Source: Xanthobacter autotrophicus
GTDB lineage: Bacteria > Pseudomonadota > Alphaproteobacteria > Rhizobiales > Xanthobacteraceae
Length of the DNA: 52,362 nucleotides
Assembly: GCF_030015065.1 (NCBI RefSeq)
Contig: NZ_JAIVFN010000014.1
Coordinates: 1-52,362 of the forward strand
Direction of reading: 5' to 3'
Every line of letters begins with the position of its first letter. Position 1 is the stretch's first letter. The position numbers and the translations under genes were made by a program. The notes under the pieces are model-generated. The model did not search any database, was not told the origin of the DNA, and saw only the letters and a list, made by a program, of their open reading frames with translations. This document shows positions 25,201 through 41,800 of this stretch, piece after piece.

Positions 25201-25423
25201 GCGTCGTGGGCGTGCGGACCCCGCCAGCGCGCATGCGATCAGTCGTGATCCATGAAAGGCCAAGTCCATGACGAAACGAAACGTGCGCACCGGCACCCGG
25301 TGAGCACGGCGATCGGCATACCCTTTCGGCGGTAATGCTCTGCTAGGCATCCACAAGCAGACGTTTCCGAGGTCCACAAAGGATCATCTCCAGCCCAGCT
25401 TGACAGCCATCCGCGGGGGAGAT

Positions 25424-25708
25424 CTAGAGCAGATCTTCCCATTGTCGTGCGCCGTGCACGACACGGACGATCTCCGCCCCCTCGTCGATCTGGCGGTACA
25501 AAATCAAGTAGTTGCCGGCTGGGAGGCTTCTCAACTCAGGCCGCACCTCCGGCCGAGCAACGCCGATGCCTGGCATCTCCCCGATCCGCTGGCAACGGCG
25601 GTAAATATCTTCGTACCAGTGTCGGGCCGCCGAAGGATTGTCCTCGGCAATGTAAAGGGCGATGGCTTCGATGTCCGCCTCGGCCTGTGGTCGAAGCCGG
25701 TAGCTCAT
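25424..25708 (-). CDS. parE: ParE/RelE-family toxin
   Basis: A 94-residue basic toxin of the RelE/ParE superfamily. It begins YRLRPQAEADIEAIALYIAE and ends in the beta-hairpin NYLILYRQIDEGAEIVRVVHGARQWEDLL, as in ParE toxins that inhibit DNA gyrase. Its start overlaps the antitoxin stop by ATGA, giving the usual antitoxin-first operon. ParE rather than RelE is suggested by the ParD partner. The pair is 360 bases outside the left edge of the large inverted structure. Confidence 0.9.
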   Translation of the reverse strand: MSYRLRPQAEADIEAIALYIAEDNPSAARHWYEDIYRRCQRIGEMPGIGVARPEVRPELRSLPAGNYLILYRQIDEGAEIVRVVHGARQWEDLL

Positions 25709-25986
25709 TCTCCCCCACGCCCAGCAATCTTGGCATCGAGCTTCTGCCTGATCCGGGCGAAGGCTTCCTCACCATCGACAGCGGGGCCGCTGCTCATGCC
25801 GGCATCCCACAACCGCCCCAGCTCTTCGACGGCCTTGGCACGCAGCGTCCTCCGGTGCTTCCAGTCGCGCAGGGCCTCCCGCATGACCTCGCTCGCCGAC
25901 GCATACTCGCCGGTCTCGACCACCTCACGCATCATCGCCGCCATTTCAGGGGTGAGGGCGACACTCACCTTCTCGACATTGGCCAT
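25705..25986 (-). CDS. parD: ParD-family antitoxin
   Basis: A 93-residue antitoxin. The N-terminal ribbon-helix-helix is EKVSVALTPEMAAMMREVVE, then SASEVMREALRDWKHR, the CopG/ParD pattern. The acidic, flexible C-terminal half would wrap the toxin. I chose ATG 25986, with AGGAG nine bases upstream; the longer upstream frame has no family resemblance. A palindrome 24-41 bases upstream is the likely autoregulatory site. Confidence 0.9.
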   Translation of the reverse strand: MANVEKVSVALTPEMAAMMREVVETGEYASASEVMREALRDWKHRRTLRAKAVEELGRLWDAGMSSGPAVDGEEAFARIRQKLDAKIAGRGGE

Positions 25987-26009
25987 GAGATCGTTCTCCT
26001 TTTGTCCTA

Positions 26010-26027
26010 TAGTAGGCAAGCTTACTA
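26010..26027. promoter_or_regulatory. Palindrome upstream of parDE, operator candidate
   Basis: TAGTAGGCA/AGCTTACTA forms an 18-base dyad with seven of nine positions paired (arms TAGTA and TACTA are perfect). It lies 24 bases before the parD start, which suits autoregulation by the ribbon-helix-helix antitoxin. An AT-rich CCTATAGTA overlaps it and could be part of the promoter. Confidence 0.5.
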
Positions 26028-26349
26028 CCAACAGCAAGCGGAGAGTTTTCGGAAGTCGGGAGCAGCCCGGCACCATCTCCAGCAAAGATGCTGCGCACCG
26101 CCATGACGGTGCGTAACGGCTAAGGCCGCGCTGGTTCAGTTCGTGCCCCCAAAGCAGGCGTTCCAAAGGGCCGCAACGGGTCACAGCCCGTAAGCGCGCC
26201 AGAGGGAGAGATCCCCGCAGTCCTCAGCCGAGCCGCATGGCCATCGCCCCCTTTTGCGTCCGCTCCGATTTACGGCTCTGAGGGAAGGGCTTCCCTACTA
26301 ACACGCTGCGGGTCTCCGGCGACCCGTCTGCGGGGTTGTCCTGCAACGA
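26028..26349. other. Intergenic region between parDE and the left arm
   Basis: About 320 bases without a credible gene. A palindrome GGGAAG-GG-CTTCCC lies at 26282-26295. The rest has no recognised element. Sequence similarity to the right arm begins only at 26350. Confidence 0.4.
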
Positions 26350-26377
26350 GTCGAGAGTGAGAGGTTGGCCGGTTCGG

Positions 26378-26425
26378 CCATGACGGGTTGTGGACTGGGA
26401 GAGAGGCTCCCGGCGCCCGTCATGG
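26378..26425 (+). promoter_or_regulatory. Structured 5' leader of the first DUF932 gene (copy A)
   Basis: The outer stem CCATGACGGG (26378-26387) pairs with CCCGTCATGG (26416-26425) over 10 bp. The inner stem CTGGGAG (26395-26401) pairs with CTCCCGG (26407-26413) around the loop AGAGG. The ribosome site GGAG begins inside the 3' foot of the outer stem, 10 bases before the ATG at 26435, so folding could mask it. Three more copies precede the other arm genes. Confidence 0.7.
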
Positions 26426-26434
26426 AGACGACCC

Positions 26435-27631
26435 ATGACTCAGGTGGAGATTCTGGACGCGACGCCCGCTGGTGCGGGCGCCTACAAGGTGGATGTGAGC
26501 CGCGGCGAGCGGATCGGCCGCGTGTCCTCGGAGTGGTTCTCCCGGCCCGACGACGAGCGCTACCTGTCCCTGTCGGACCTGTTCACCGCAGTGTACGGCC
26601 GGACCGAGCACAGCAGGACGCGGACGGTGGAGAGCGCGGCGATCCGCGTCGAGGCGAGCCGAGAGGACGCCGAGCGCCTGATGCTGGTGTTGCCGGGCTC
26701 GGACGCACCCGTCGCCCCGACACATTGGAGCTTCGGCCAGCTCGCGAGCCTCGTCGGCGCCCCAGCGGCCTATTTGCGCCAGCTCCCCGCACCTCTTGCC
26801 GGCATCAACCTGCAATATGGCCTCACCTCCAATCGCGCCGAGCAGGTCAAGACACTTGAGATCGAGGATGGTCGCGTCGAACTGCGCGCCGTCACCGGTC
26901 CCGACTATGGCCGCATCTTCGACCATGAGCTGGTCGCCGCCGTACAACGCATCGCCGGCAACGGCACGGGGGACACCCGCTGGAAGGTGCCGGGCGTGCT
27001 CGACTGGTCGACCGGCATCTACAATCCCCGGGTCGACATCACCAGGGATACGACGACGCTCTATGCCTCGGATCGGGACGTCTTTCTGTTCCTGGTGGAC
27101 GACCTCAATCCCATCGAGGCCGGCCGTCTACCCGACGGTTCGCCCGACCTCTATTTCCGCGGCTTCTATTGCTGGAACTCGGAAGTCGGGGCGAAAACGC
27201 TTGGCATCGCGAGCTTCTATCTGCGCGCCGTGTGCCAGAACCGCAATCTGTGGGGCGTCGAGGATTTCGAGGAGATCACCATCCGCCACTCCAAATACGC
27301 CGCCTCGCGCTTTGCCCATGAGGCGGCGCCGGCGCTGACCCGCTTCGCCAATTCCTCCCCCCTGCCCTTCGTCAACGGCATCAAGGCGGCTCGCGAGAAG
27401 ATCGTGGCCCGCTCGGATGAGGACCGCAGCGCGTTCCTGCGCAAGCGCGGCTTCTCCAAGGCCGAGACGGCCAGGATCATCGAGACGGTGCTGATGGAGG
27501 AGGGCCGTCCACCCGAGAGCGTCTTCGACTTCGTGCAGGGCATCACCGCCGTCGCGCGGGACAAGCCCCACCAGGACGCCCGGCTCGATCTGGAGGCGCG
27601 GGCGAAGAAGCTGCTCGACCGGGCTGCCTGA
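26435..27631 (+). CDS. DUF932 protein, left-arm copy
   Basis: A 398-residue DUF932 protein, a family common on alphaproteobacterial plasmids and integrative elements near ParB-like and anti-restriction genes; the biochemical role is not settled. Recognisable parts are VSSEWFSRPDDERYLSLSDL (about residues 30-49), WSFGQLASLVGAPAAYLRQL, a central NGTGDTRWKVPGVLDWSTGIYNP region, FRGFYCWNSEVGAKTLGIAS and a C-terminal Lys-rich helix. I chose ATG 26435, preceded by the hairpin leader and GGAGA. The right-arm paralogue has the same length but differs strongly in its first 30 residues. Confidence 0.85.
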   Translation: MTQVEILDATPAGAGAYKVDVSRGERIGRVSSEWFSRPDDERYLSLSDLFTAVYGRTEHSRTRTVESAAIRVEASREDAERLMLVLPGSDAPVAPTHWSFGQLASLVGAPAAYLRQLPAPLAGINLQYGLTSNRAEQVKTLEIEDGRVELRAVTGPDYGRIFDHELVAAVQRIAGNGTGDTRWKVPGVLDWSTGIYNPRVDITRDTTTLYASDRDVFLFLVDDLNPIEAGRLPDGSPDLYFRGFYCWNSEVGAKTLGIASFYLRAVCQNRNLWGVEDFEEITIRHSKYAASRFAHEAAPALTRFANSSPLPFVNGIKAAREKIVARSDEDRSAFLRKRGFSKAETARIIETVLMEEGRPPESVFDFVQGITAVARDKPHQDARLDLEARAKKLLDRAA

Positions 27632-27744
27632 GTTCCGGAAAGCCGGAGATGCGGATTGCCGTGTCTCCGGCTCCATATGGTCCCAGCTTTCCAGATCGTC
27701 GGGTTTGCGGCGCCGTCCTCAGAGGCAGAGGGCGGCGCTGTGCT

Positions 27745-27793
27745 TCATGACGGGTTGAAGGCCAGAGAGAGGTTCTCCGGCCGCCCGTCGCGG
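27745..27793 (+). promoter_or_regulatory. Structured 5' leader of the left-arm parB-like gene (copy B)
   Basis: The stem GACGGG (27749-27754) pairs with CCCGTC (27784-27789), extended by a T-G wobble, then an A/C mismatch and further pairing. The inner part has GGCC/GGCC and GAGA/TCTC pairing around a GAGGT loop. GGAG follows directly and the ATG is at 27805. It has the same layout as copies A, C and D. Confidence 0.65.
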
Positions 27794-27804
27794 AGAAGCA
27801 TCCC

Positions 27805-29904
27805 ATGGCCACGGCCGTTCAGAAGATCACCCTTTCGTCGTCCCGCGACATCCCCTTCAACAAGCTGGTGCTCAGCCAATCCAACGTCCGCCGGGTGAAG
27901 GCCGGCGTCTCCATCGAGCAACTCGCCGAGGACATCGCCCGGCGCGGCCTGCTGCAGGGCCTCAATGTCCGCGCCGTCGTCGATGCAGACGGTGTCGAGA
28001 CCGGCATGTTCGAGATCCCGGCTGGCGGCCGGCGCTACCAGGCGCTGGAGCTCCTGGTGAAACGCAAGCGCCTGGCCAGGACCGCGCCGGTGCCCTGCGT
28101 CGTGCGTGAGGGCGGCATCGCCGAGGAGGACTCGCTCGCCGAGAACGTCCAGCGCGCCCCGCTGCATCCCCTCGACCAGTTCCGTGCCTTCCTGGCACTC
28201 CGCGAGAAGGGCCAGTCCGAGGAGGAGATCGCCGCCGCCTTCTTCGTGTCGGTGGCGGTGGTGAAGCAGCGGCTGAAGCTCGCCTCGGTCTCACAGAGGC
28301 TGCTCGACACCTATGCCGAGGACGGCATGACGCTGGACCAGCTCATGGCGTTCACCGTGTCGGGCGACCATGAACGCCAGGAGCAGGTGTTCGATCGGCT
28401 GCAACAGGCCTACGACAAGCAGCCTCATGTCATCCGGCGGATGCTGACCGAGGGCGCCGTGCGCGCCTGCGACAAGCGGGCGCGGTTCATCGGTGTCGAG
28501 GCCTATGTGGAGGCCGGCGGCACGGTGCTGCGCGACCTGTTCCAGGGCGACGACGGCGGCTGGCTGCAGGATGTCACCCTCGTGGACCGGATGGTGGCCG
28601 ACAAGCTGAAGGCGGAAGCGGAAGCCATCGCCGCCGAGGCCTGGAAATGGATCGAGGTCGCCCCCGACTTCGCCTACGGCCACACCTTCGGCCTGCGCCA
28701 GCTGCGCGGCGATCCGGTTCCCATGTCGATGGAGGAGGAAGCGGCCCGCGATGCCGTGCAGGCGGAGGTCAACCGCCTGTCCGAGGCGTATCAGGACGCC
28801 GACGAGCTGCCCGACGAGGTCGACGCGCGCCTGGGCGAGCTTGAGGCGGCTCTGGAGGCGATGGACGCGCGGCCGCTGGCCTTTGATCCTGCAGGGGTCG
28901 CCCGTGCCGGTGCGTTCGTGAGCATCGGTCCTGAGGGCCGCCTGCGGATCGAGCGCGGCTACGTCCGGCCGGAGGACGAACTGCCGGTCGAGGCGGACCC
29001 CGACGCGGAGGACATCGGCGAGGTCGCCGCGGTGTCGGCCACCCACGACATCGACCACACCGTGTCCGCCGATGCCCAGGCAGTGGAGCCGGAGGAGGAT
29101 GACGGCCTGTCGCCGATCTCGGACCGGCTGATGACGGAGCTCACCGCCCACCGCACCCTCTGCCTGCGCCAGGCGCTCGGCGACCGTCAGGACGTAGCCT
29201 TCCTCGCGGCGCTCCACGCTTTGACCCTCAAGGCCTTTTATCCCTACGGCCTGGACAGCTGCCTGGAGCTGGATCTCAAGAGCGTCAGCTTCGGCACGCA
29301 GGCGCCGGGGCTGAACGACAGCGCCGCCGCCGAGGCGATCCGGATGCGGCACGAGAGCTGGGCAAAGGCATTGCCGAAGGAGTCCGCAGAGCTGTGGGAC
29401 GCCCTGGAAGGCTGGGAGGCCGATAGCCGGTCCGCCCTCTTCGCCCATGTCGTCAGCCTTTCGGTCAATGCCGTGCAGGAGGCCTGGAACCGCCGGCCCC
29501 GGGCGCTCGCCCATGCGGACCAGCTGGCCCAGGCTGTCGGCCTCGACATGGCGGCGGCCGGCTGGCGACCGACCGTGGACACCTTCCTCGGCCGCGTCAC
29601 CAAGCCCCGCATCCTCCAGGCGGTCACGGAGGCGAAGGGCCAGCGCGCCGCCGAGCGGATCGCCCACCTCAAGAAGGGCGACATGGCCACCGAGGCGGAG
29701 ACCCTGCTCGCGGACACTCGGTGGCTGCCCGAGCCGCTGCGCACGGCCGGCATGAAAAGCCCCGAAACCGGGGAGACGACGGCGCTGGACTCCGTCGTCG
29801 AGAAAACGGCGGAAAACGACGGCGAAACGGCCGTGGTCGAAGGCGACGGCTTCGACGACACTGACGAAGCCTCGGACGCTCCCGTCCCCTCTGCCGCTGA
29901 ATAG
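27805..29904 (+). CDS. ParB/RepB/Spo0J-like partition protein, left-arm copy
   Basis: A 699-residue ParB-family protein. The N-terminal ParB domain (about residues 15-115) has IPFNKLVLSQSNVRRVKAG and IPAGGRRYQALELL with the G-x-R-R motif, and AENVQRAPLHPLDQFRAF. A helix-turn-helix follows (SEEEIAAAFFVSVAVVKQRLKLA). The long C-terminal part, acidic in the middle, is typical of plasmid/ICE ParB-like proteins rather than chromosomal ParB (about 300 aa). No parA partner lies nearby, so a role in partition is doubtful; nucleoprotein assembly on the mobile element is an alternative. It ends before a strong terminator. Confidence 0.88.
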   Translation: MATAVQKITLSSSRDIPFNKLVLSQSNVRRVKAGVSIEQLAEDIARRGLLQGLNVRAVVDADGVETGMFEIPAGGRRYQALELLVKRKRLARTAPVPCVVREGGIAEEDSLAENVQRAPLHPLDQFRAFLALREKGQSEEEIAAAFFVSVAVVKQRLKLASVSQRLLDTYAEDGMTLDQLMAFTVSGDHERQEQVFDRLQQAYDKQPHVIRRMLTEGAVRACDKRARFIGVEAYVEAGGTVLRDLFQGDDGGWLQDVTLVDRMVADKLKAEAEAIAAEAWKWIEVAPDFAYGHTFGLRQLRGDPVPMSMEEEAARDAVQAEVNRLSEAYQDADELPDEVDARLGELEAALEAMDARPLAFDPAGVARAGAFVSIGPEGRLRIERGYVRPEDELPVEADPDAEDIGEVAAVSATHDIDHTVSADAQAVEPEEDDGLSPISDRLMTELTAHRTLCLRQALGDRQDVAFLAALHALTLKAFYPYGLDSCLELDLKSVSFGTQAPGLNDSAAAEAIRMRHESWAKALPKESAELWDALEGWEADSRSALFAHVVSLSVNAVQEAWNRRPRALAHADQLAQAVGLDMAAAGWRPTVDTFLGRVTKPRILQAVTEAKGQRAAERIAHLKKGDMATEAETLLADTRWLPEPLRTAGMKSPETGETTALDSVVEKTAENDGETAVVEGDGFDDTDEASDAPVPSAAE

Positions 29905-29924
29905 CACCGGCGACCTGCGCGACG

Positions 29925-29952
29925 GGCCCACCGGCGACGGTGGGCCTTTTCT
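29925..29952 (+). terminator. Rho-independent terminator after the left-arm parB-like gene
   Basis: The stem GGCCCACCG (29925-29933) pairs perfectly with CGGTGGGCC (29938-29946) around a GCGA loop and is followed by TTTTCTT. It lies 20 bases after the parB stop and 15 bases before the truncated primase start, so it should limit read-through into the RIT element. Confidence 0.8.
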
Positions 29953-29966
29953 TATGGAGGTCCATC

Positions 29967-30155
29967 ATGGCGCAATCGCCCCATGATCTGGCGCGCCGTC
30001 TCGCCGAGCGCGCGGAAGCGGTGTGCCGCCACTATCTCTCCAATGGCCGGCGGCAGGGGAACTACTGGCAGGTGGGTGACGTGCGCAATACGCCCGGCCA
30101 CTCCATGTTCGTGCGTCTCAGGGACTCTCCGAAAGGGCCGGCCGGCAAGTGGACC
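29967..30155 (+). pseudogene. Primase-like gene, 5' part only, cut by the RIT left end
   Basis: The 63 codons match the N-terminus of the intact primase-like protein at 30266 (shared HDLARRLAERAEAVCRHYLS, then YWQVGDVRNTPG and a TDY ending). After base 30155 the frame runs into the RIT end and stops at 30266. TGGAGG precedes the ATG. No continuation of the gene is found beyond the element. The right arm holds the same fragment cut at the same base in opposite orientation. Confidence 0.8.
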
Positions 30156-30240
30156 GATTATGTTGCGCCGAGGGTTATGTTGCGGGCGCGCGCCGGGCGG
30201 CGGTGTTGCGAGGGCTCGGCAGCTTCTGCACAACATAATC
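30156..30240 (+). repeat. Left inverted end of the RIT element
   Basis: An 85-bp end beginning GATTATGTTGCGCCGAG and ending ACAACATAATC. It contains two direct copies of TTATGTTGCG near the outside, a third related GTGTTGCG, and an inverted CAACATAAT at the inside, so it looks like an array of recombinase-binding sites. It matches the reverse complement of 34602-34686 with about nine differences counted by eye. Confidence 0.85.
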
Positions 30241-30265
30241 TCAGCCCGTCAGGGAGGGTCGCGTG

Positions 30266-31309
30266 ATGCCCCGCGACGCTTCCGAGCTGGCGCGGCGTCT
30301 CGCCCGCGACGCCGAGGCAGTCTGCCGCCATTACCTCTCCAAGGGCCGACGCCAGGGCCGCTACTGGACGGTGGGCGACGCGCGCAACGCGCCGGGCCGG
30401 TCGATGTTCGTGCGGCTGAGCGGGCCGGATTCCGGCCCCGGCGCAGCCGGGCATTGGACCGATGCCGCCTCGGCCGAGCACGGCGACCTGCTCGACGTGA
30501 TCCGCAAGAGCTGCGGGCTCGTCGAGTTTCGCGATGTTGCCGAGGAGGCCCGGCGCTTCCTGTCGCTGCCCCGCGCCGAACCGCCATATGAGCCGAGACC
30601 GCCCGCTCCGACCGGTTCGCCCGAGGCGGCGCGGCGGCTCTGGGCCATCACGAAGCCGATCGTCGGCACCTTGGCCGAGGCGTACCTGCGCGCCCGCGGG
30701 ATCACGGACCTGAGGGGATGTGAGGCCCTCCGCTTTCATCCGCGCTGCTGGTATCGTCCGGACGAGCGTGCGCCGACCGAGAGCTGGCCGGCGATGATCG
30801 CGGCGGTCACCGATCTTTCCGGCGCCGTCACCGGCGTGCATCGTACCTGGCTTGCCCCGGACGGCTTGGGCAAGGCGCCGATCGACACGCCGCGACGAGC
30901 CATGGGCGTTCTTCTCGGCCATGCCGTTGGGTTCGGCGCGGCCGGCGACGTCCTCGCTGCCGGCGAGGGCATCGAGACGATGTTGTCGCTGCGATGCGCG
31001 ATGCCCGCCATGCCGATGGCGGCCGCGCTCTCAGCCAGCCATCTCGCTTCTCTCCAGTTCCCGCCAGGGCTCCGTCGGCTCTACATCGCGCGCGATGCCG
31101 ATGCCGCAGGCGAGACGGCGGTCGCGGCGCTCACCGAGGCCGCCGAAGCCGCTGGCGTCGAGGCGCTGGTCCTTTCCCCGCAACTTGGGGACTTCAACGA
31201 GGACCTGCTCGCGTTCGGCCTCGGCGCCGTTCGCGCGTCGGTGCGCGCTCAGCTCGTCCCGCAGGATGCGGTCCGCTTCATGCGGCGGAGGATGGCGAGG
31301 ACAGGGTGA
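30266..31309 (+). CDS. Toprim-domain primase-like protein carried inside the RIT element
   Basis: A 347-residue protein. Residues 1-100 are the N-terminal domain shared with the truncated copies (ELARRLARDAEAVCRHYLSK, YWTVGDARNAPG, HWTDAASAEHGDLLDVI). The C-terminal Toprim region has the catalytic Glu in AAGEGIETMLSLR (about residues 237-249), and Asp residues in YIARDADAAGETAV (about 277-290). Such proteins occur on plasmids and integrative elements and may prime DNA synthesis. GGGAGGG precedes the ATG at 30266; a GTG at 30263 is also possible. It converges with ritC 25 bases downstream and is the only complete copy here. Confidence 0.82.
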   Translation: MPRDASELARRLARDAEAVCRHYLSKGRRQGRYWTVGDARNAPGRSMFVRLSGPDSGPGAAGHWTDAASAEHGDLLDVIRKSCGLVEFRDVAEEARRFLSLPRAEPPYEPRPPAPTGSPEAARRLWAITKPIVGTLAEAYLRARGITDLRGCEALRFHPRCWYRPDERAPTESWPAMIAAVTDLSGAVTGVHRTWLAPDGLGKAPIDTPRRAMGVLLGHAVGFGAAGDVLAAGEGIETMLSLRCAMPAMPMAAALSASHLASLQFPPGLRRLYIARDADAAGETAVAALTEAAEAAGVEALVLSPQLGDFNEDLLAFGLGAVRASVRAQLVPQDAVRFMRRRMARTG

Positions 31310-31334
31310 CCGACGCCGGCACCCCGTCTCCGAC

Positions 31335-32330
31335 TCACAATGCCTTCAGGAAGGCCATGAGGTCCTTGTCCTCCTTCCATGAGCGAGCGGGCCGTGGCTG
31401 CCCCACCTCGCAGAGCGCGACGGCGTTGGCCTTCAGCGTGAGGTCGATCTCGGCATAGATGTTGGTCGTGCTGATCGACACGTGTCCGAGCCAGGCACGG
31501 ATGGTGTTGATGTCCACGCCGGCGAGGACCAGGTGGCAGGCCGTGGTGTGCCGGATCATGTGCGGCGTTATCGTTCGATCGGCCAGTCCCGGGACCTTGG
31601 CCGCACAACGCTCGATGAGGCGGTACACCCCGAAGCGGGTGAACGGCGTCCCGAGCCGGCTGACGAACACGGCGTCTTCGGTCGCGCGGCCGCTGATCTC
31701 GTCCACCAGAACGCGCTCGGTTTCCGGCCATAGCGGGCAGTGCCGCGTCCTGCCGCCTTTGCCGTGCAAGGTGGCGAGATCGTGCCCGCCGTTCCGCAAT
31801 CCCATCTGCAGATCGCACACCCTTAGCTGGGTGGCTTCGGAGACCCTTGCGCCGGTATTGTAGAGGAAGAGCAGAAGCGCGTACTCGCTCCGGCCGCGTC
31901 GGGTCTTGCGGTCGGGCGTCGCCAACATCGCCTCCATCTCCGTCCTGGTCAGCCATCCGACCGGCGGCGGCATGGACCGCTTCGACGCGATGGCCCGGAT
32001 GTGACCGCACCATTCAACATGGATCGGGTCCCGGCTGCCGACGAAGCGCGCGAACGCCCGGATGGCGGCCAGTCGCTGATTACGGGTCCGGGCGGTGCAA
32101 CCTCGATCTGTCTCGATATGGGCGAGGAACTGCAGCACGTGTCCGGACGTCAGGTCCCACACGGCCAACCGGTCCACGGGCTTGCGTGCCTTCCGGCTGA
32201 TAAAGGGCAGCAGCAGACTGAAGGTGTCGCGGTAACTCTTACGGGTGTTCCGGGCGAGATTGCGTTCGGTGACGATGTGCTCGCCCAGGAAGCGGCGGAG
32301 CCAGGGGCCGAGGGCTGCGAGGTCAGACAT
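31335..32330 (-). CDS. ritC: Tyrosine recombinase, third of the RIT trio
   Basis: A 331-residue site-specific recombinase. The N-terminal SAM-like DNA-binding domain (about residues 10-110) has NLARNTRKSYRDTFSLLLPF. The catalytic domain has the first Arg in NTGARVSEATQL, the H-x-x-R in HMIRHTTACHL, the late His in WLGHVSISTTNIY and the nucleophilic Tyr at the end of that motif. All catalytic residues appear present. ATG 32330 follows GGGAGG and overlaps the ritB stop by 8 bases; an upstream ATG at 32348 is possible. It is the last gene transcribed and is nearest to the passenger gene. Confidence 0.9.
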   Translation of the reverse strand: MSDLAALGPWLRRFLGEHIVTERNLARNTRKSYRDTFSLLLPFISRKARKPVDRLAVWDLTSGHVLQFLAHIETDRGCTARTRNQRLAAIRAFARFVGSRDPIHVEWCGHIRAIASKRSMPPPVGWLTRTEMEAMLATPDRKTRRGRSEYALLLFLYNTGARVSEATQLRVCDLQMGLRNGGHDLATLHGKGGRTRHCPLWPETERVLVDEISGRATEDAVFVSRLGTPFTRFGVYRLIERCAAKVPGLADRTITPHMIRHTTACHLVLAGVDINTIRAWLGHVSISTTNIYAEIDLTLKANAVALCEVGQPRPARSWKEDKDLMAFLKAL

Positions 32331-33273
32331 GCCGACCTCCCTCTGCATAGCGGGCGAACCGCAGCGACGCCTGTTCCAGCAGCTCCGGCGTCATCGACAG
32401 GTAGACCTTCGTGCCCTCCAGATCGGCGTGACCGAGATAGGTGGAGAGCACCGGCAGCAGCCGTTGCACATCGGCGCCCTGCCGATACCAGCTCGTCAGG
32501 CGATGGACCGCGAAGCTGTGCCGAAGGTCGTGCAGGCGCGGGACCTTCCGACCACCTGCCGCGCGGTGGATCCCGACGACGCGCCGCAGCGTGTCGAACG
32601 CGGCCTGCACGGTGCTGCTCGCGAGCCGAGTTCCGTCCTGGTTCGCCAAGAGCAAGGCGTTCTCGCCTTGGGCAAGCCCGCCGCGCCCACGCAGGGAGAC
32701 GTGTCGGTCCAGTACCGCTGCGAGCTGTGGTCCGACCGGAACTAGGCGGCTCTTGTAGAACTTCGTGGCCCGGATGGTCAGGACGGCGTTCGCCAGATCG
32801 ACGTCGGCCAACGTGAGCCGGGTCGCCTCACCAAAGCGTAACCCCGCCGCGTACAGCAGGAGAAGCAGGGTGCGGAACGTCACCGCATCCAGCTGGACCG
32901 CGCCGCGCCGGCTTGCCTCCACGGTCGCGGGATCGAAGAGGCGCGCAAGCTCATCGCGCGAGTAGATGTAGGGCGGTGCCCGAACGGGCGATCTCGGCGC
33001 GTCGACCGGCATGGGCGAGCGGGCCGCATGGCCGCGGCTGATCGCGTGACGCCAGAAGCCGGCAAGCGCATAGTACCTGTTCTCGCGGTGACGCGTCGGC
33101 GGGCCCTCTCCCGCGAGGTAAGCCAGGACCTGTCCCGTGGTGGCCGCGTCGCAGGCGGCATCGCCATCGGCATGGTCAAGGAAGCGGCGCAGCAGGTTCG
33201 CGCCGGTCGTGAACTTCGCGCCGTGAGCCCGTCGCCAGAGCACATAGCGTTCGATCGCCTCGCGCAGGATCAT
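32323..33273 (-). CDS. ritB: Tyrosine recombinase, second of the RIT trio
   Basis: A 316-residue recombinase. It starts ILREAIERYVLWRRAHGAKF. The catalytic part has Arg in AAGLRFGEATRL, H-x-x-R in HDLRHSFAVHRL, the late His in YLGHADLEGTKVY and the Tyr in that motif. The ATG at 33273 overlaps the ritA stop by ATGA, which requires coupled translation. Open frame continues upstream inside ritA but without recombinase features. It has no independent ribosome site of note. Confidence 0.9.
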   Translation of the reverse strand: MILREAIERYVLWRRAHGAKFTTGANLLRRFLDHADGDAACDAATTGQVLAYLAGEGPPTRHRENRYYALAGFWRHAISRGHAARSPMPVDAPRSPVRAPPYIYSRDELARLFDPATVEASRRGAVQLDAVTFRTLLLLLYAAGLRFGEATRLTLADVDLANAVLTIRATKFYKSRLVPVGPQLAAVLDRHVSLRGRGGLAQGENALLLANQDGTRLASSTVQAAFDTLRRVVGIHRAAGGRKVPRLHDLRHSFAVHRLTSWYRQGADVQRLLPVLSTYLGHADLEGTKVYLSMTPELLEQASLRFARYAEGGRHV

Positions 33274-34529
33274 GCCAGGCCCTCCAGGTCGAGAGCGGCC
33301 ACCTCGCGAAGCGCTGCGAGGTCGACCTTGGCGTAGATCGTGGTGGAGGACGGATCGCGATGGCCGAGGAAGTCCCCGATCACCTTCATCGATGTACCCT
33401 GATCCAGGAGGTGCTGGGCCGCCGCATGCCGCAGGGCGTGAGCCCCACGTCGTCCGGTGACGATGCCGATGCCGGCCAGCCGGTCGCTGACGATCTTGCC
33501 CAAGGCTCTTCGGTCGAGCGGGCGGATGGGCGCGCGCGTCGTGAAGAAGAGACTGCGGCCGAAGCCGGACGGCCGCGCCTCCCTGATGTAGCGCAGGATG
33601 GCGTGGCCGACGCCCTGCGACAGCGGCCACAGATGGGTCCGGCCCGGTTTCGGGCAACGGACCCGGAGCATGGCGTTCTCCCAGTCCAGATCGTCCAGCC
33701 GCAGCCCACCGACCTCTCCGGTCCGAAGCCCGTACCCGATGAACAGCATCAGGATGGCCCGGTCGCGCTTGTCGACCGGGCGGTCGCCCCCAACCGACGC
33801 CAGCAGGCGCACGACATCCTCGCGCCGCAGCCCCTTCGGCACGCCCTCGTCGGCCATGAAGCGGGGTGCCACGATGCCCGCAGCGAGGCCCGCTCGGCAC
33901 CAGCCGCGCATCTCGGCGTACAGGAAGAACGCCCTTAGCCGCTGCGCATAATCATGTCTCGTCCGGCGGCTCCAGGCGCCACGCTCGTGCTCCGCCGCCA
34001 TGGCATCGTCGATGTCGGCCATGCCGACGACGCTCAGCCGGACGCCTTTGGCAGCCAGCTGGCCGAAGAAGTGGTCGGCCGCCTTGCAGTAGCTTTGCAC
34101 GGTCGCATCGGAGAGCCCACGATCCCCGCGCGACCATCGTGCAAAGGCCTGGACCTCGCCATGATGCGGATGGCGGCAGTCGCCATCATCTTCGAGCCAG
34201 CCCAGAAAGGTGAGCCATCGAACACCGTTGCTAACGAAGCGGTCGCGCGTCTTGGGCGACGCGGCCCGATCGCACCGGCGTCCCCTCGGCTGCGCCCATA
34301 GCGCCGCGGCAGCCTCGATCCGTGACCGGCTCACCCGGTCGCCATCTTTAAGGTCCAGAAGGCGCACCAAGCTCAGCTGATCGTTGGCACACTTGCGCAA
34401 GGTTGATCGTCTCGTGCCGGTCGCCTTCAGATGAGCAAGGTATCGCTCCCGCTGCTCTGCGAGCGGCGCCGCCCGATACGGGTTGGCGGTGTGGGGGAAG
34501 AAGATGTCATCGAACACGCTGGCCTCCAT
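33270..34529 (-). CDS. ritA: Tyrosine recombinase, first of the RIT trio
   Basis: A 419-residue recombinase, longer than its partners because of an added N-terminal region (about residues 1-130) before the SAM-like domain (LSDATVQSYCKAADHFFGQL). The catalytic domain has Arg in GYGLRTGEVGGL, H-x-x-R in HALRHAAAQHLL, and the final His and Tyr in FLGHRDPSSTTIY. It is the promoter-proximal gene and starts 72 bases inside the right inverted end, so its promoter probably lies in that end. Confidence 0.9.
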   Translation of the reverse strand: MEASVFDDIFFPHTANPYRAAPLAEQRERYLAHLKATGTRRSTLRKCANDQLSLVRLLDLKDGDRVSRSRIEAAAALWAQPRGRRCDRAASPKTRDRFVSNGVRWLTFLGWLEDDGDCRHPHHGEVQAFARWSRGDRGLSDATVQSYCKAADHFFGQLAAKGVRLSVVGMADIDDAMAAEHERGAWSRRTRHDYAQRLRAFFLYAEMRGWCRAGLAAGIVAPRFMADEGVPKGLRREDVVRLLASVGGDRPVDKRDRAILMLFIGYGLRTGEVGGLRLDDLDWENAMLRVRCPKPGRTHLWPLSQGVGHAILRYIREARPSGFGRSLFFTTRAPIRPLDRRALGKIVSDRLAGIGIVTGRRGAHALRHAAAQHLLDQGTSMKVIGDFLGHRDPSSTTIYAKVDLAALREVAALDLEGLA

Positions 34530-34601
34530 GTTGTTGGAGGCTTGATCTTCCTGACGGAGCGGGGCGGCGGAAGCTATGTTGGTCGAAACCGCTCAGACAG
34601 G

Positions 34602-34686
34602 GATTATGTTGCGCAAGAGCTGACGATCGCTCGCAACACCGCCGTCCAGCGCGCGCCCGCAACATAACTCTCGGCGCAACATAATC
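34602..34686 (-). repeat. Right inverted end of the RIT element
   Basis: The reverse complement of the left end with about nine differences, and the same 85-bp length. It keeps GATTATGTTGCG at the outer edge, the second GTTATGTTGCGGG copy and the inner CGCAACATAATC. Most differences fall in the inner third, as expected if the outer sites are the recombinase targets. It abuts the right-arm primase fragment exactly as the left end abuts the left one. Confidence 0.85.
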
Positions 34687-34875
34687 GGTCCACTTGCCGG
34701 CGGGGCCTTTCGCGCTGTCCGTCAGCCGCACGAACATGGAGCGCCCGGGCGTGTTGCGAACATCGCCCACCTGCCAATAGTGCCCCTGCCTCTGGCCAGC
34801 GGAGAGATAATGGCTGCAGACGGCTTCCGCCTGCCTGCCGAGCCGTCGGGCGAGGTCATGCGCTGCATCCGACAT
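34687..34875 (-). pseudogene. Primase-like gene, 5' part only, cut by the RIT right end
   Basis: The 63 codons correspond to the left-arm fragment (HDLARRLGRQAEAVCSHYLS, YWQVGDVRNTPG) and end at the same TGGACC boundary, after which the frame reads into the RIT end. TTGGAGCGTCCCC precedes the ATG. The remaining two thirds of the gene, including the Toprim region, are missing. Confidence 0.8.
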
Positions 34876-34965
34876 GGGGACGCTCCAACAGAAAGGCCCG
34901 CCGTCCGGGCCATGCGACAGGGGGAGCGCGAGGCGACGGGCGGCGGGCCAAGTTGCCCGGGAGGA

Positions 34966-37029
34966 TTATTCGGCAGCGATCGGGGGAGAGATCGCTTCGG
35001 GCTCCTCACTATCGGCGAGGTCCTCGCTGTCGCCCATGGCCGTTGCGCCGTCCTTCTCCGCCGCCTCTTCGCCGGCGATGTCGCAGGGCTGGGTTCGCAG
35101 GGCTTCCGGGAGCCAACCGCTGTCGGCGAGGAGGGTTTCGGCCTCCCGCGCCATGTCGCCCTTCTTGAGGTGGGCGATCCGTTCCGCCGCGCGTTCCCCC
35201 TTCGCCTCGGTCACCGCCAGCAGGATGCGGGCCTTGGTGACCCGGCCGAGGAAGGTGTCCACGGTCGGCTTCCACCCGGCCGCCGCCATGTCGAGCGACA
35301 CCGCCTGCGCCAGCCGGTCGGCATGGGCAAAGGCGCGCGGACGCCGGTTCCAGGCCTCGTGCACGGCATTGACCGAGAGGCTCACCACATGGGCGAACAA
35401 GGCGGCGCGGCTGTCGTGCTCCCACCCGCTCAGGGTGTCCCAAAGTGTACCCGGCTCCTTGGGCAACGCCTTGGCCCAGCTCTCATGGCGCACGCGGATG
35501 GCCTCGGCCGAAACGCTGTCGTTGAGGCCTGGCGCCTGGGCGTTGAACGACACGCTCTTGAGATCGAGCTCGAGGCAGCTATCCGAGCCATAGGCGTAGA
35601 AGGCCTTCAGCGTGAGGGCGTGGACTGCGGCAAGGAAGGCCACATCGGGCTGCTCACCGAGCGCATGGCGCAGGCCGAGCGTCCGATGGGTGGTCAGCTC
35701 CGTGAGCAGCCGGTCGGAGATCGGCGTGAGGCCGTCTTCCTCCTCGGGCTCCGCAGGGGCATCGGGTGTGGCCGCCTCCTGGAGAGGAGTCGAGGGCATG
35801 GCAGACCCATCATGGCTCTCGGCGGGACGGTCTTGGTCCTCCTCGACGGGCACCTCGTCCTCGGGACGGACATAGCCCCGTTCCACCCGGAGCTTGCCAT
35901 CCTGCGCGATGCTGACGAATGCACCGGCACGAACGACCTCGGCAGGGTCGAACACGACGGGAGGCGCTTCGAAGGCCTCCAGCATCGCCTCGAGTTCGCC
36001 AAGGCGGGCGTCGGTCTCTTCGGGAAGCTCGTCGGCATCGGCATATTCTTCGGAGAGGCGATCGTATTCCGCCTGGGCGGTCTCTCGTGCGGCCTCCTCC
36101 TCCTCGGTCACCGGCGCGGGCTCGCCCCGCAACTGGCGCAGGCCGTAAGTGTGGCCATAGGCGAAGTCCGGCGCCACCTCGATCCACTTCCAGCCTTCAC
36201 TCCGGATCGCGTCGGCCTCGGCGGCAAGCTTCTCCGCCACCATCCGGTCGACGAGGGTTACGTCCTGCAGCCAACCGCCATCATCGCTCTGGAACAGGTC
36301 GCGCAGCACCGTGCCGCCGGCCGTCTCGTAGGCTTCGATGCCGATGAAGCGGGCCCGCTTGTCGCTGGCCCGAACCGCGCCTTCGGTCAGCATGCGCCGG
36401 ATGGCATAGGGCTGCTTGTCGTAAGTCTGGGCGAGACGCTCCAGCACCTGCTCCTGCCGCTCATGGTCGCCCGACACGGTGAATGCCATGAGCTGGTCGA
36501 GGCTGAGGCCATCCTCGGCGTAGGTGTCGAGCAGCTTTTGAGAAAGGGAGGCGAGCTTCAGCCGCTGCTTCACCACCGCGACCGAGACGAAGAAGGCGGC
36601 GGCGATCTCCTCCTCGGACTGGCCCTTCTCGCGCAAGGCGAGGAAGGCGCGGAACTGGTCGAGCGGATGCAGCGGCGCGCGCTGGACGTTCTCGGCCAGC
36701 GAATCCTCCTCGGCGATGCCGCCCTCCCGCACGATGCAGGGCACGGGCGCGGTCCGGGCGAGGCGCTTGCGCTTCACCAGCAGTTCCAGCGCCCGATAGC
36801 GCCGTCCGCCGGCCGGGATCTCGTACATGCCGGTCTCGACCCCATCCGCATCGATCACGGCTCGGACATTGAGGCCCTGGAGCAGGCCCCGTCGGGCGAT
36901 GTCCTCGGCGAGCTCCTCAATGGAAATGCCGGCCTTCACCCGGCGGACGTTGGACTGGCTCAGGACCAGCCTGTTGAAGGGGATGTCGCGGGACGACGAA
37001 AGGGTGATCTTCTGAACGGCCGTGGCCAT
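34966..37029 (-). CDS. ParB/RepB/Spo0J-like partition protein, right-arm copy
   Basis: A 687-residue paralogue of the left-arm protein. The first 180 residues are nearly identical (IPFNRLVLSQSNVRRVKAGI, IPAGGRRYRALELL, AENVQRAPLHPLDQFRAF and the SEEEIAAAFF helix-turn-helix). The acidic middle region and the C-terminus have diverged, with a net loss of 12 residues. ATG 37029 lies just after leader copy C; the frame extends further upstream without homology. Near-identity of the DNA-binding half implies both copies recognise the same site, while the variable part may differ in partners. Confidence 0.88.
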   Translation of the reverse strand: MATAVQKITLSSSRDIPFNRLVLSQSNVRRVKAGISIEELAEDIARRGLLQGLNVRAVIDADGVETGMYEIPAGGRRYRALELLVKRKRLARTAPVPCIVREGGIAEEDSLAENVQRAPLHPLDQFRAFLALREKGQSEEEIAAAFFVSVAVVKQRLKLASLSQKLLDTYAEDGLSLDQLMAFTVSGDHERQEQVLERLAQTYDKQPYAIRRMLTEGAVRASDKRARFIGIEAYETAGGTVLRDLFQSDDGGWLQDVTLVDRMVAEKLAAEADAIRSEGWKWIEVAPDFAYGHTYGLRQLRGEPAPVTEEEEAARETAQAEYDRLSEEYADADELPEETDARLGELEAMLEAFEAPPVVFDPAEVVRAGAFVSIAQDGKLRVERGYVRPEDEVPVEEDQDRPAESHDGSAMPSTPLQEAATPDAPAEPEEEDGLTPISDRLLTELTTHRTLGLRHALGEQPDVAFLAAVHALTLKAFYAYGSDSCLELDLKSVSFNAQAPGLNDSVSAEAIRVRHESWAKALPKEPGTLWDTLSGWEHDSRAALFAHVVSLSVNAVHEAWNRRPRAFAHADRLAQAVSLDMAAAGWKPTVDTFLGRVTKARILLAVTEAKGERAAERIAHLKKGDMAREAETLLADSGWLPEALRTQPCDIAGEEAAEKDGATAMGDSEDLADSEEPEAISPPIAAE

Positions 37030-37041
37030 GGGATGCTTCTC

Positions 37042-37090
37042 CGCGACGGGCGGCCGGAGAACCTCTCTCTCTGACCTCCAACCCGTCACG
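37042..37090 (-). promoter_or_regulatory. Structured 5' leader of the right-arm parB-like gene (copy C)
   Basis: On the minus strand CGTGACGGG pairs with CCCGTCGCG over nine positions including one G-T wobble. The inner part contains GGTC/GGCC and a GAGAGAGAGG purine run opposite TTCTCC. GGAG overlaps the foot of the stem and the ATG is 12 bases further on. It is very similar to copy B and differs at the outer stem in a way that preserves pairing. Confidence 0.68.
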
Positions 37091-37204
37091 AAGCACGGCG
37101 CCGCCCTCTGCCTCTGAAGACGGCGCCGCAGAACCGACAATCCGGAAACCTGGAACGACACGGAGCCAGAAACACGGCGATCCGCATCTCCGGCTTTGCG
37201 GATC

Positions 37205-38401
37205 TCAGGCGGCCCGGTCGAGGAGCTTCTTTGCCCGGGCCTCCAGATCGAGGCGAGCATCCTGATGCGGCTTGTCCCGCGCCACCGCTGTGATCCCCTG
37301 CACAAAGTCGAAGATACTCTCCGGCTTGCGGCCTTCCTCGGCGAGCACGGTGTCGATCACCTTCTGCGTCTCTGCCTTGGAGAAACCTTTGCGACGCAGG
37401 AACTCGGTACGGTCTTCATCGTTGCGCGCCACGATGCGCTCGCGCGCCGCCCTGATGCCGTTGACGAAGGGCATGGGCGAGGAGTTGGCGAAGCGCTCCA
37501 GGGCCGGCGCCGCCTGATGGGCGAAGCGGGAGGCGGCGTATTTGGAGTGGCGGATGGTGATCTCCTCGAAATCCTCCACGCCCCACAGGTTGCGGTTCTG
37601 GCAAACCGCCCGGAGATAGAAGCTGGCGATGCCCAGCGTCTTGGCGCCAACCTCCGAGTTCCAGCAATAGAAGCCCCGGAAGAACAGGTCGGGCGAGCCG
37701 TCAGGCAGTCGGCCGGCTTCAATGGGGTTGAGGTCGTCCACCAGGAACAGGAAGACGTCCCGGTCAGAGGCGTAGAGCGTGGTCGTGTCCTTGGTGATGT
37801 CGACGCGGGGATTGTAGATGCCCGTCGACCAGTCGAGCACGCCCGGCACCTTCCAGCGCGTGTCGCCGGTGCCATTGCCGGCGATGCGGCGCACGGCGTC
37901 CACCAGCTCATGGTCATAGATGCGGCCGTAGTCGGGACCGGTCACCGCCCGGAGTTCGACGCGCCCCTCCTCCACCTCCAGCGTCTTCACCTGCTCGGCG
38001 CGGTGCGACAGCAGGCCGTGCTGCAGGTTGATGCCGGCCAACGGTGCTGGGAGCTGACGCAGATAGGCGGCGGGCGCCCCGATGAGGCCCGCCAGCTGGC
38101 CGAAGCTCCAGTGGGTCGGGGCCACAGGCGCCTCCGCCCCGGGCAGCGCGAGCGTCAGCCGGTCCGGAGCCTCCCGGCTCGCCTCGACGCGGATGGCGGC
38201 GCTCTCCACGGTGCGCGTCCGGCTCCGGTCGGACCGCCCGCGCACCGCGCCATAGAGCTCAGACAGGGAAAGGAAGCGCTCGTCCGCCGGCCGGGAGAAC
38301 CACTCGGAGGACACGCGGCCGATCACCCCGCCGCGGTTCGCATCCACCCTGTATCCGCCTGCCACTTCCCGGCTCGTCTCTAGAACCTGAACCTCAGTCA
38401 T
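37205..38401 (-). CDS. DUF932 protein, right-arm copy
   Basis: A 398-residue paralogue of the left-arm DUF932 protein. It shares VSSEWFSRPADERFLSLSEL, WSFGQLAGLIGAPAAYLRQL, GNGTGDTRWKVPGVLDWSTG, FRGFYCWNSEVGAKTLGIAS and the final LDLEARAKKLLDRAA. The N-terminal 30 residues and several surface positions differ. ATG 38401 follows leader copy D. Keeping two intact diverged copies suggests both are functional. The gene is the outermost one of the right arm, 420 bases from the ndvB 3' end. Confidence 0.85.
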   Translation of the reverse strand: MTEVQVLETSREVAGGYRVDANRGGVIGRVSSEWFSRPADERFLSLSELYGAVRGRSDRSRTRTVESAAIRVEASREAPDRLTLALPGAEAPVAPTHWSFGQLAGLIGAPAAYLRQLPAPLAGINLQHGLLSHRAEQVKTLEVEEGRVELRAVTGPDYGRIYDHELVDAVRRIAGNGTGDTRWKVPGVLDWSTGIYNPRVDITKDTTTLYASDRDVFLFLVDDLNPIEAGRLPDGSPDLFFRGFYCWNSEVGAKTLGIASFYLRAVCQNRNLWGVEDFEEITIRHSKYAASRFAHQAAPALERFANSSPMPFVNGIRAARERIVARNDEDRTEFLRRKGFSKAETQKVIDTVLAEEGRKPESIFDFVQGITAVARDKPHQDARLDLEARAKKLLDRAA

Positions 38402-38411
38402 GGGACCAAAC

Positions 38412-38461
38412 TCCGTGACGGGCGCCGGAAGCCTCTCTCCCGATCTTCAACCCGTCACGGA
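38412..38461 (-). promoter_or_regulatory. Structured 5' leader of the right-arm DUF932 gene (copy D)
   Basis: On the minus strand TCCGTGACGGG (38461-38451) pairs perfectly with CCCGTCACGGA (38422-38412) over 11 bp. The inner stem CGGGAG pairs with CTTCCG around the loop AGAGG. Compared with copy A the outer stem has G-C where A has A-T, a compensatory change. CGGAG at the foot of the stem is the ribosome site for ATG 38401. Confidence 0.7.
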
Positions 38462-38488
38462 AATCCGATCCAACCTCTCGCTCTCGAC

Positions 38489-38819: not shown

Positions 38820-41800
38820 TCAGGACGGCACGTCTAGCCCAAGCGTAACGCGGATGGGGTGATCTGCAGGCCAATCCTCCAGAGCGATGAGCAGCGGGTT
38901 CACCGGCAGTGCGACCCCATCCAGCGTGGCGGACACAATGCCCCGGCTCACACCCTGCGGATTTTCCACTGTGATGCGATATCGCGCCGAGCCGTGGCGG
39001 ATCGTCAGCTCGAAGCCCGGCCACTCCCGCGGGATGCAGGGATCGAGGCGGAACATGCACCCTTCCTTGCGCAGCCCGAGGATGCTCTCGATCCCCGCCC
39101 GTTGCATCCAGCCCGCCGAGCCCGTGTACCAGGTCCAGCCGCCGCGGCCCGCGTGGGGCGGCTCTGCATAGATGTCGGCGGCGAGCACGTAGGGCTCGAC
39201 CTTGTAGCGCAGGACGTCGGAGCGGGTCCGCGCGTGGTTGATGGGATTGAGCATGGAGAACAGGGCCGCGGCCCTGTCGCCATCTCCCAAGGCTGCGAAT
39301 GCCATCACGGACCAAAGCGCCGCATGGGTGTATTGGCCGCCATTCTCGCGGATGCCCGGCGGATAGCCCTTGATGTAGCCGGGATCGAGCGGCGTCCTGT
39401 CGAACGGCGGCGTGAACAGCAGCGCCAATCCTTCGCCCGGCCGGATCAGCTCCCGCTCCACCGCCGCCATGGCGCGGACGGCCCGTGCGGGATCGCCCGC
39501 GCCTGACAGCACCGCCCAGGACTGCGCGATGGAATCGATACGGCATTCCCCGCTCATGGCCGAGCCCAGCGGAGTGCCATCGTCGGAGAAGGCGCGGCGA
39601 TACCATTCCCCGTCCCACGCCGCGCGGTCGAGCGCAGCGCCAAGCCCCTCCGCATGGGCCCGCCATCGCGCGGCGCGCAGATCGTCTCCCCTTGCGTCGG
39701 CCAGGGGGGCGAACGCCGTGAGGGCCGCGTGCAGGAACCAGGCGAGCCAGACGCTCTCGCCCTCGCCGCCTTGGCCCACGCGGTTCATGCCATCGTTCCA
39801 GTCGCCGGTTCCGATCAGCGGCAGGCCGTGGCGGCCCAGCGCGAGACTCTGGTCCAGGGCGCGGGCGCAGTGCTCGAACAGGGAAGCGGCCTCGTCGGAG
39901 ACGGTGGGTGGGAAGAAGGCTTCGTGCTCGCTTATATTGAGCTTCTGGCCTTCCAGGAAGGGCACCCTTTCATCCAGGACGCCACGGTCGCCGCTCACCT
40001 TCACATAATGGGCGGTGGCAAACGCGAGCCAGGCGCGATCGTCGGAAATGCGGGTGCGCACGCCCCGCCCCGAATGGGGCAGCCACCAATGCTGCACGTC
40101 GCCTTCGACGAATTGCCGTGCGGCGGCCCGCAGCAGGTGCGCGCGCGTCATGTCCGGACGCAGCGGGGCAAGGGCCATTCCGTCCTGGAGCTGGTCGCGG
40201 AAGCCGTAGGCGCCGCTCGCCTGGTAGAAAGCCGAGCGCGCCCACACCCGGCACGCCAGCGACTGGTAGAGCAGCCAGCCGTTCAGCATGATGTCCATGG
40301 CGCGGTCCGGTGTGCGTACCTCGACAGCGCCGAGGATATCGTCCCAGCCCTTGGTCACTTCGGCGAGGACTGCGTCAAGGTCGGCGGCGCGGAACCGGGC
40401 GATCAGTTCGCGGGCCTCCGGCGCATCGGCACCTTCACCCAGGAGGATGACGATCTCCGCGCTGGCATTCGGGCGCAGGTGCACGGTCGACCGCATGGCC
40501 CCGCAGGGATCGAGGCCTGCCCCCACGAGCCCGGAAAGCGGCGCGAGCCGCCTGAGCGCCGCGGGGTCGGCGAGGGTGCCGTTTCGCCCGATGAATTCGC
40601 GGCGGTCGCCCGTCCAGTCGGTCTGGCGTCCGCCCATGTCGAGGAAGGCGACGCGTGACCCGAAATCGCCGTTCCAGGGATTGCAGGCGAACAGGGCCCC
40701 GGTCTCGCTGTCGATGGAAGTCGCCACGAAGGGCGCCGTGGCGGAGCGCGATGGACCGAGCACCCATTCCGCGTAGGCGGTGAGCGAGAGCCGTCGCGGG
40801 CGGCTTGTCAGGTTGCGCAGTGTGAGGCGGGAGATCTTGACGGCCCCCTCGACCGGCACGAACTGGACAAGCTCGCTCGCTATGCCATGGGCCGCATGGG
40901 TGAAGACGCTGTAGCCCCGGCCGTGGCGGGCCGCATAGGTGGCCGCCTCGTCGCGCATGGGCAGGGCGGTGGGCGTCCAGACGGCGCCGGTCTCATCGTC
41001 CCGCAGGTAGAAGGCTTCGCCGGTGCGGTCAGTGACCGGATCGTTCGACCATGGCGTGATCAGGTTTTCCCGGCTGTTCTGGGACCAGGTGGAGCCGCTG
41101 CCCTCGGCTGCCACCTGGAAACCGAATGCGGGATTGGCGACGACATTGATCCACGGCGCCGGCGTGGACCGGCCCGGGCCGAGCACCGTCACATATTCGC
41201 GTCCATTGTCGGCGAATCCGCCGAGGCCGTTGAAGAATTCCAGCTCCGGCAGCGGAGGCGGCGGCTCGGGCGCCGCTGCACGGAGTCTGAGAGGCACGCT
41301 TGGGGTGGATTCGGCTGCGCTGATCCGGTCCAGCTGCTCCACGAGGCTGCCGCGCTGGGCCACGAGTACGATGCGGGCAATGGAAGACAGGAGCGATCGC
41401 GTTTCCGCCGGAATGAGATCGGCGCGCAGCACGAATACCCGTCCCGTAGGTCCATTCCGCTCCGCCTGCGGCTGCGATCGGCTGGTGCGGACGAGTGCCT
41501 CGAGCGCGATCTGCAGATCCTGCACATAGGACGACTGGCGCTCGTTGAGGATCACCAGGTCCACCGCGAGCTGCTTCATGCGCCAGTATTCGTGCGCCTT
41601 CAGGAGTTCATGGGCGACATCGACATCGTCGAGGTCGGAAATGCGAAGCAGCACGATGGGCAGGTCACCGGAAATGCTCTGCGCCCAGAGGCCGGACTGC
41701 GGCCCCCCGCCGCGAAGGATCGTGTCCGACGCGGGGCGTAACGTCGGCGCAGCGTAGATCGCATAGCCGGCGAGCCGCTGATATGTGGCCGCATCGCCTG

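Follow-up and report, generated by a model that had tools for sequence, protein, structure and literature searches.

RIT elements are widespread. Those described have three adjacent, overlapping tyrosine recombinase genes in an element of about 3.5 kb, and insertions have been found inside genes, including radC, the tnpA gene of IS66 and a transposase gene; the portions of these reports used here leave the ends unsettled, with inverted repeats of 28-29 or 34 bp, and consider the need for three recombinases hard to understand (PMC3414803, PMC2864759, PMC8138268, PMC10214605). The portions of two of them that bear on mobility report no laboratory movement of a RIT (PMC10214605, PMC3414803). In the cited excerpts on related systems, SE and Tn554 are described as carrying a 6-bp stretch of donor flank to the new site (PMC10214605), and Islander catalogues islands that restore the tRNA gene they split (PMC4383910).

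The window analyzed here is the whole 52,362-nucleotide stretch of Xanthobacter autotrophicus DNA, contig C14 of a 5.04-Mb assembly in 594 contigs. At its center lie three adjacent tyrosine recombinase genes on the minus strand (31335-34529), each encoding a Phage_integrase domain: ritC (31335..32348), ritB (32323..33273, start inferred from relatives), and ritA (33270..34529), with overlaps between ritA and ritB and between ritB and ritC. The names were assigned by gene order and similarity among relatives. The trio is enclosed by 83-bp terminal inverted repeats (TIRs) at 30158..30240 (plus strand) and 34602..34684 (minus strand). Each TIR contains the motif TTATGTTGCG twice, 17 bp apart (at 30158 and 30175 on the left, at 34675 and 34658 of the minus strand on the right), plus an inverted copy about 71 bp in (at 30229 and 34604, respectively), and one of the six copies of this 10-mer has one mismatch. 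With three mismatches allowed, the paired motif occurs at two sites in the genome, namely these two ends, and the genome holds one element of this TIR motif type. A second RitC-like recombinase gene set was seen elsewhere in the same genome (G000:C61:10748-13267), with 40% identity at best.

Directly outside each TIR lies the 6-bp core GACCGA (30152..30157, plus strand; 34685..34690, minus strand), placed within Trp-Thr-Asp codons of a toprim primase gene. Both element ends therefore cut this gene at the same codons, and the 5' half is retained at each. The left primase fragment (29967..30266, plus strand) continues in frame through the TIR to a stop in the TGATG at 30264-30268, and the right fragment (34507..34875, minus strand) reads through the TIR into the start of ritA. 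These features are best explained by a RIT-type site-specific element whose clade inserts at one codon position of plasmid or island primase genes. Mobility can be argued indirectly for the relatives, where the locus pairs L025/L026 and L030/L031 suggest movement.

The earlier note on this DNA had placed the RIT between two diverged, inverted arms of identical gene order, and this is borne out by comparison of the window with itself using BLAST, which returned one long inverted repeat (26350-30240 versus 38488-34602) with 79.7% identity over 3940 columns. The repeat goes beyond the junctions given in the earlier note (30155/30156 and 34686/34687) and extends into the TIRs because these are inverted copies of each other as well. 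In the left arm, a DUF932-like gene (26390..27631, plus strand; Pfam DUF932 below cut-off, E 0.0056) is followed by a ParB-like gene (27805..29904, plus strand; ParB_N below the Pfam cut-off; TIGR00180). The right arm carries their counterparts on the minus strand, a DUF932-like gene (37205..38401; Pfam DUF932 below cut-off, E 0.0026) and a ParB-like gene with ParB_N above the Pfam cut-off, whose true start probably lies further inside the long open reading frame 34966..37305. Beyond the right arm, at 38820-47393, a 2857-aa open reading frame resembles cyclic glucan synthases; it had been considered as a strawberry-notch gene, which was rejected as Pfam gives GH94 and glucoamylase-type domains.

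Dating of the arms by synonymous divergence, which the earlier note had proposed, agrees with its view that they are no recent palindrome. Left and right arms differ by a dS of 0.67-0.73 (about 0.7), whereas the right arm and a similar empty site on contig C6 of the same genome (88% identity, primase uninterrupted) differ by only 0.42-0.49. Within the genus, sequences of the left arm type were found with 93.7% identity over 25381-30157 (L136) and 94.7% over 25724-30157 (L137), and one of the right arm type with 89.4% (L143, genome G487), all three with an uninterrupted primase gene. Since each arm type occurs with an intact primase in genomes of the same genus, two old lineages were joined rather than one copied in place. 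An inverted duplicate that diverged where it arose would account for the gene order and end point common to both arms, but we give this origin next to no probability and have discarded it, as the left-right dS exceeds that between the right arm and C6 and separate genomes hold each arm type. The 3' halves of the two broken primase genes were absent from the window's own assembly in an own-genome search.

Between the left TIR and ritC lies a complete primase gene (30266..31309, plus strand; DUF7146 and Toprim_3). The earlier note had correctly assigned primase 5' parts to both arms but had overlooked that this complete gene is part of the element. In a phylogenetic tree of primases, in which stop codons in primase fragments were entered as X, element-borne primases separate from target primases with a support of 0.85. 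Within the element group, a ritA-side and a ritC-side sub-lineage are mostly, not always, kept apart, and the window copy is of the ritC type. An assignment of the complete gene to the left arm was rejected, as it groups with the element primases.

The relatives of RitA used here comprise 82 loci: 74 from genome contigs, 3 from viral contigs and 5 from plasmids, the latter taken from the best 30 of 595 matching plasmid records. Close relatives, defined by a RitA identity of at least 61% to the window, account for 49 of the 82. In these, inward-facing primase genes stand beside the trio on both sides in 22 loci, on one side in 9 and on neither in 18; nine of the last are contigs of at most 3.4 kb, but seven measure 5.3-11 kb. 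Among the other 33 loci (RitA below 61%), a primase match was found in one only (L074). The window element has one of the two possible copies. The ritA leader behind its right TIR is matched in two relatives (L038 and L040) by the one located after their ritA-side primase, so the ritA-side copy has probably been lost here. Other genes can be included as well, with urease genes and nikR between trio and primase in Haematobacter and a permease and a channel gene at this position in Aminobacter. Ten primase pairs gave pN/pS values of 0.24-0.44.

The broken target gene and the spare gene are connected in a uniform manner. Of 29 ends that bear a primase, 28 have a target frame that stays open through the TIR for 34-35 codons and ends in TGATG over the ATG of the spare primase; counted by distinct TIR sequence, this holds for 22 of 23. 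The one exception (L047) also has TGATG at the end of the frame, but the called gene start differs. Ends without a primase have a frame open that far in 9 of 66 cases, a comparison set that may include chance motif matches. As the interrupted frame closes in the TGATG at the spare primase, the element replaces its broken target, and at the level of sequence it carries what restores the disrupted gene as a new cistron. The operon could thereby still make a whole primase from the spare copy, presumably by translational coupling. With an inward-facing copy at each end, the gene would be restored whichever way the element is oriented, and among relatives the trio occurs in both orientations with respect to the target. 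In the window, it is the left operon that gained the spare primase, while the right one runs on into the genes for the recombinases. Three further loci of the family (L135, L144, and L145) keep the order 5' fragment-TIR-primase, and the 18-20 kb of downstream sequence covered contains no RIT genes; they are possibly scars of a lost element whose spare primase survived.

A second regularity concerns what lies between TIR and target. For a census of ends, 91 loci were entered, 41 of which had both ends by the motif rule; 10 were set aside with a contig end within 36 bp of a TIR, and the 31 kept have at least 36 bp outside each TIR. Counting these insertions, which are partly dependent (e.g., L025/L026, L030/L031, and L081/L082), 25 have one end joined directly to the target and one end with a linker, 6 are direct at both ends (the window, L055, L103, L122, L028, and L072), and none has two linkers. 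The linker is a palindrome of about 20 bp, for instance TTATGTTGAACTGCACATAA, between 6-bp cores. In only 11 of the 25 direct-plus-linker elements do the two ends share an identical 6-bp core next to the TIR, a core that varies between elements; in the other 14, the cores differ between the ends, some by one base and others fully. A core that is the same at both ends yet different between elements points to two sites of inverted polarity. In two contigs of metagenome-assembled genomes (L030 and L031), the element and the target 5' flank are common, the 3' flank is different and the linker is reversed. The RITs of pHG1 did not show these motifs.

Three further observations were made in this survey. 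A perfect linker palindrome, TTATGTGGAGCTCCACATAA, lies at G000:C2:135602-135621 in the window's own genome (L150), about 210 bp from the end of the locus, and is followed by a TIR-like array of the variant motif TTATGCGGAG (twice, plus one inverted copy); it is probably the end of another RIT-type insertion. Among RITs of other phyla, an annotated group II intron reverse transcriptase gene adjoins the element in L121 and L123. L084 and L085, likewise RITs of other phyla, sit in a sequence that resembles domain V of a group II intron.

Inverted-homologous flanks were found in 4 of the 6 direct-plus-direct elements versus 0 of the 25 direct-plus-linker elements (Fisher test, 0.0005; 0.0025 when the window, which had started the search, is excluded). 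The earlier note had called for a search for the arm-RIT-arm order elsewhere, and similar symmetric forms indeed exist around other RITs. In Acidocella (L055), primase 5' fragments on either side of the RIT are 95% identical over 131 bp up to the contig end. A phage contig from IMG/VR (L103) has two colinear phage-tail arms, each spanning about 7.7 kb and carrying tape-measure genes, with 64-73% nucleotide identity in the aligned pieces. Another metagenome record (L104) carries the RIT and left arm as in L103, and on its right side a linker and head genes, so that one RIT is seen in a symmetric and a simple form. A Megaera plasmid (L122) has inverted flanks with 98.5% identity over 204 bp. This repeat is presumably the end of an IS66-type transposase gene. 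The flanks of the remaining two direct-plus-direct elements, L028 and L072, are unrelated, and in L028 another recombinase gene and IS91 lie next to the element end. Among 12 further loci (L112-L123), long symmetric arms were found only in L112, which is the L103 contig again, with L122 reaching 237 bp. A RitA search at E<=1e-80 that covered 297 genomes from the order returned the window's own genome as the single match; a different draw, of 391 family genomes, contained this element type.

That C14 falsely joins two loci at the element is improbable. An assembly in 594 contigs invites the suspicion, and in close relatives contig breaks are frequent within the element or next to it. However, the two TIRs differ from each other, and the junction regions have no exact match longer than 32 bp, which makes a misjoin at a short repeat unlikely. 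The genome has the paired motif nowhere but at these two ends, and symmetric forms are also present in other assemblies, including a closed plasmid. We regard it as highly improbable that arm, RIT and arm together work as one symmetric mobile unit, which the earlier note had raised as one option. Symmetric forms do recur around different RITs, but the content, length and divergence of the arms differ in every case, and comparison of the window with itself gave no further repeat at the outer ends. What is repeated is the element from TIR to TIR; among the matches listed for the 391 family genomes, there was no second full-length match, the whole 12 kb matching only the window's own record.

That a RIT joins two related but diverged backbones head to head, as the earlier note had it, is supported; absent from that account were the primase carried by the element, its TIRs, the linker rule and the way in which the target gene is replaced. 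We favor, at a probability of roughly 0.6, a route in which the inner core lets the recombinases link each end of the element to a separate copy of the target, on the same half in both. An ordinary RIT insertion has one direct end, the other carrying the approximately 20-bp palindromic linker flanked by 6-bp cores. Of these cores, the one that lies between linker and inner TIR would be a second recombination site of inverted polarity. If this inner core recombined with the target of another related island, the free TIR would be joined to the 5' half of that island, and the linker would be dropped during this second joining. The product would be 5' half-RIT-5' half with inverted arms.

Homologous recombination would give the same product, and we consider it an unlikely but serious alternative. 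Here, the RIT recombinases would have made only the original insertions, and two islands with oppositely oriented copies of the element would have joined their 5' halves by a crossover inside it. Since two opposite copies align along their full length, a crossover anywhere within them leaves direct ends on both sides; both orientations relative to the target are seen, and copies of an element recur within a genome or sample (L030/L031 and L084/L085). The same process should also give elements with two linkers, but 0 of 31 were found, though the symmetric cases are few, and there is a single element with this type of motif in the window's own genome. Inner-core joining by the recombinases, for its part, should yield a partner product in which a lone linker stands between two primase 3' halves, and no such product was found. 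The unrelated flanks of L028 and L072, the sharing of one core by both ends in only 11 of 25 elements, the 18 close loci with no element primase seen, the single copy in the window and the lack of these motifs in the pHG1 RITs also weigh against this route. Searches of the window's own genome gave no linker next to a primase, and no lone linker stood out among the plasmid matches listed (40 of 94 records), where, besides known carriers, H88 matched the last 6 linker-side bases.

The relatives suggest that replacement of the target gene and joining of two targets both recur. We tentatively extend this to a general view, in which our confidence falls somewhat short of even: these RITs could be double-ended joiners that fuse target-sharing replicons, islands or phages head to head at one codon, the inverted spares keeping the gene alive in either orientation of the element. 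The inner inverted core beside the palindromic linker would let the recombinases fuse two targets. Double-ended joining, if true, would offer mosaic plasmids, islands and phages a dedicated way to arise. The analysis provides a testable RIT anatomy of TIR motifs, 6-bp cores and palindromic linker. It also describes a RIT clade whose members substitute inverted spare copies for the target gene they break, some of them with further genes on board, and a signature by which the junctions of related replicons fused head to head can be recognized. Provisionally, inverted spare target genes, the linker and head-to-head RIT fusion are not described in the titles and abstracts of the literature searched.

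Compared with known systems as far as the consulted portions of the literature describe them, the window element resembles RITs in its trio of overlapping recombinase genes, its insertion inside a gene and its inverted terminal repeats. It differs from the described RITs in its 83-bp TIRs, the carried primase, the cargo of some relatives and the symmetric forms, and those portions make no mention of a spare target gene, a linker or the joining of two targets. As in SE, GInts and Tn554, several tyrosine recombinases act as a set, and the 6-bp cores have a counterpart in the 6-bp flank stretch of SE and Tn554 (PMC10214605). The excerpts on SE and GInt give four conserved genes of other kinds, including Tfp/GinC and Srap/GinD, whereas three recombinases and a toprim primase are all that was recognized between the TIRs here, and the elements of this kind have long TIRs and a palindromic linker. 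Like the islands of the Islander excerpts, the window element supplies the sequence that restores the broken gene (PMC4383910), but unlike them it does so with a complete protein gene, which in this clade is often present twice and inverted, behind a TGATG junction.
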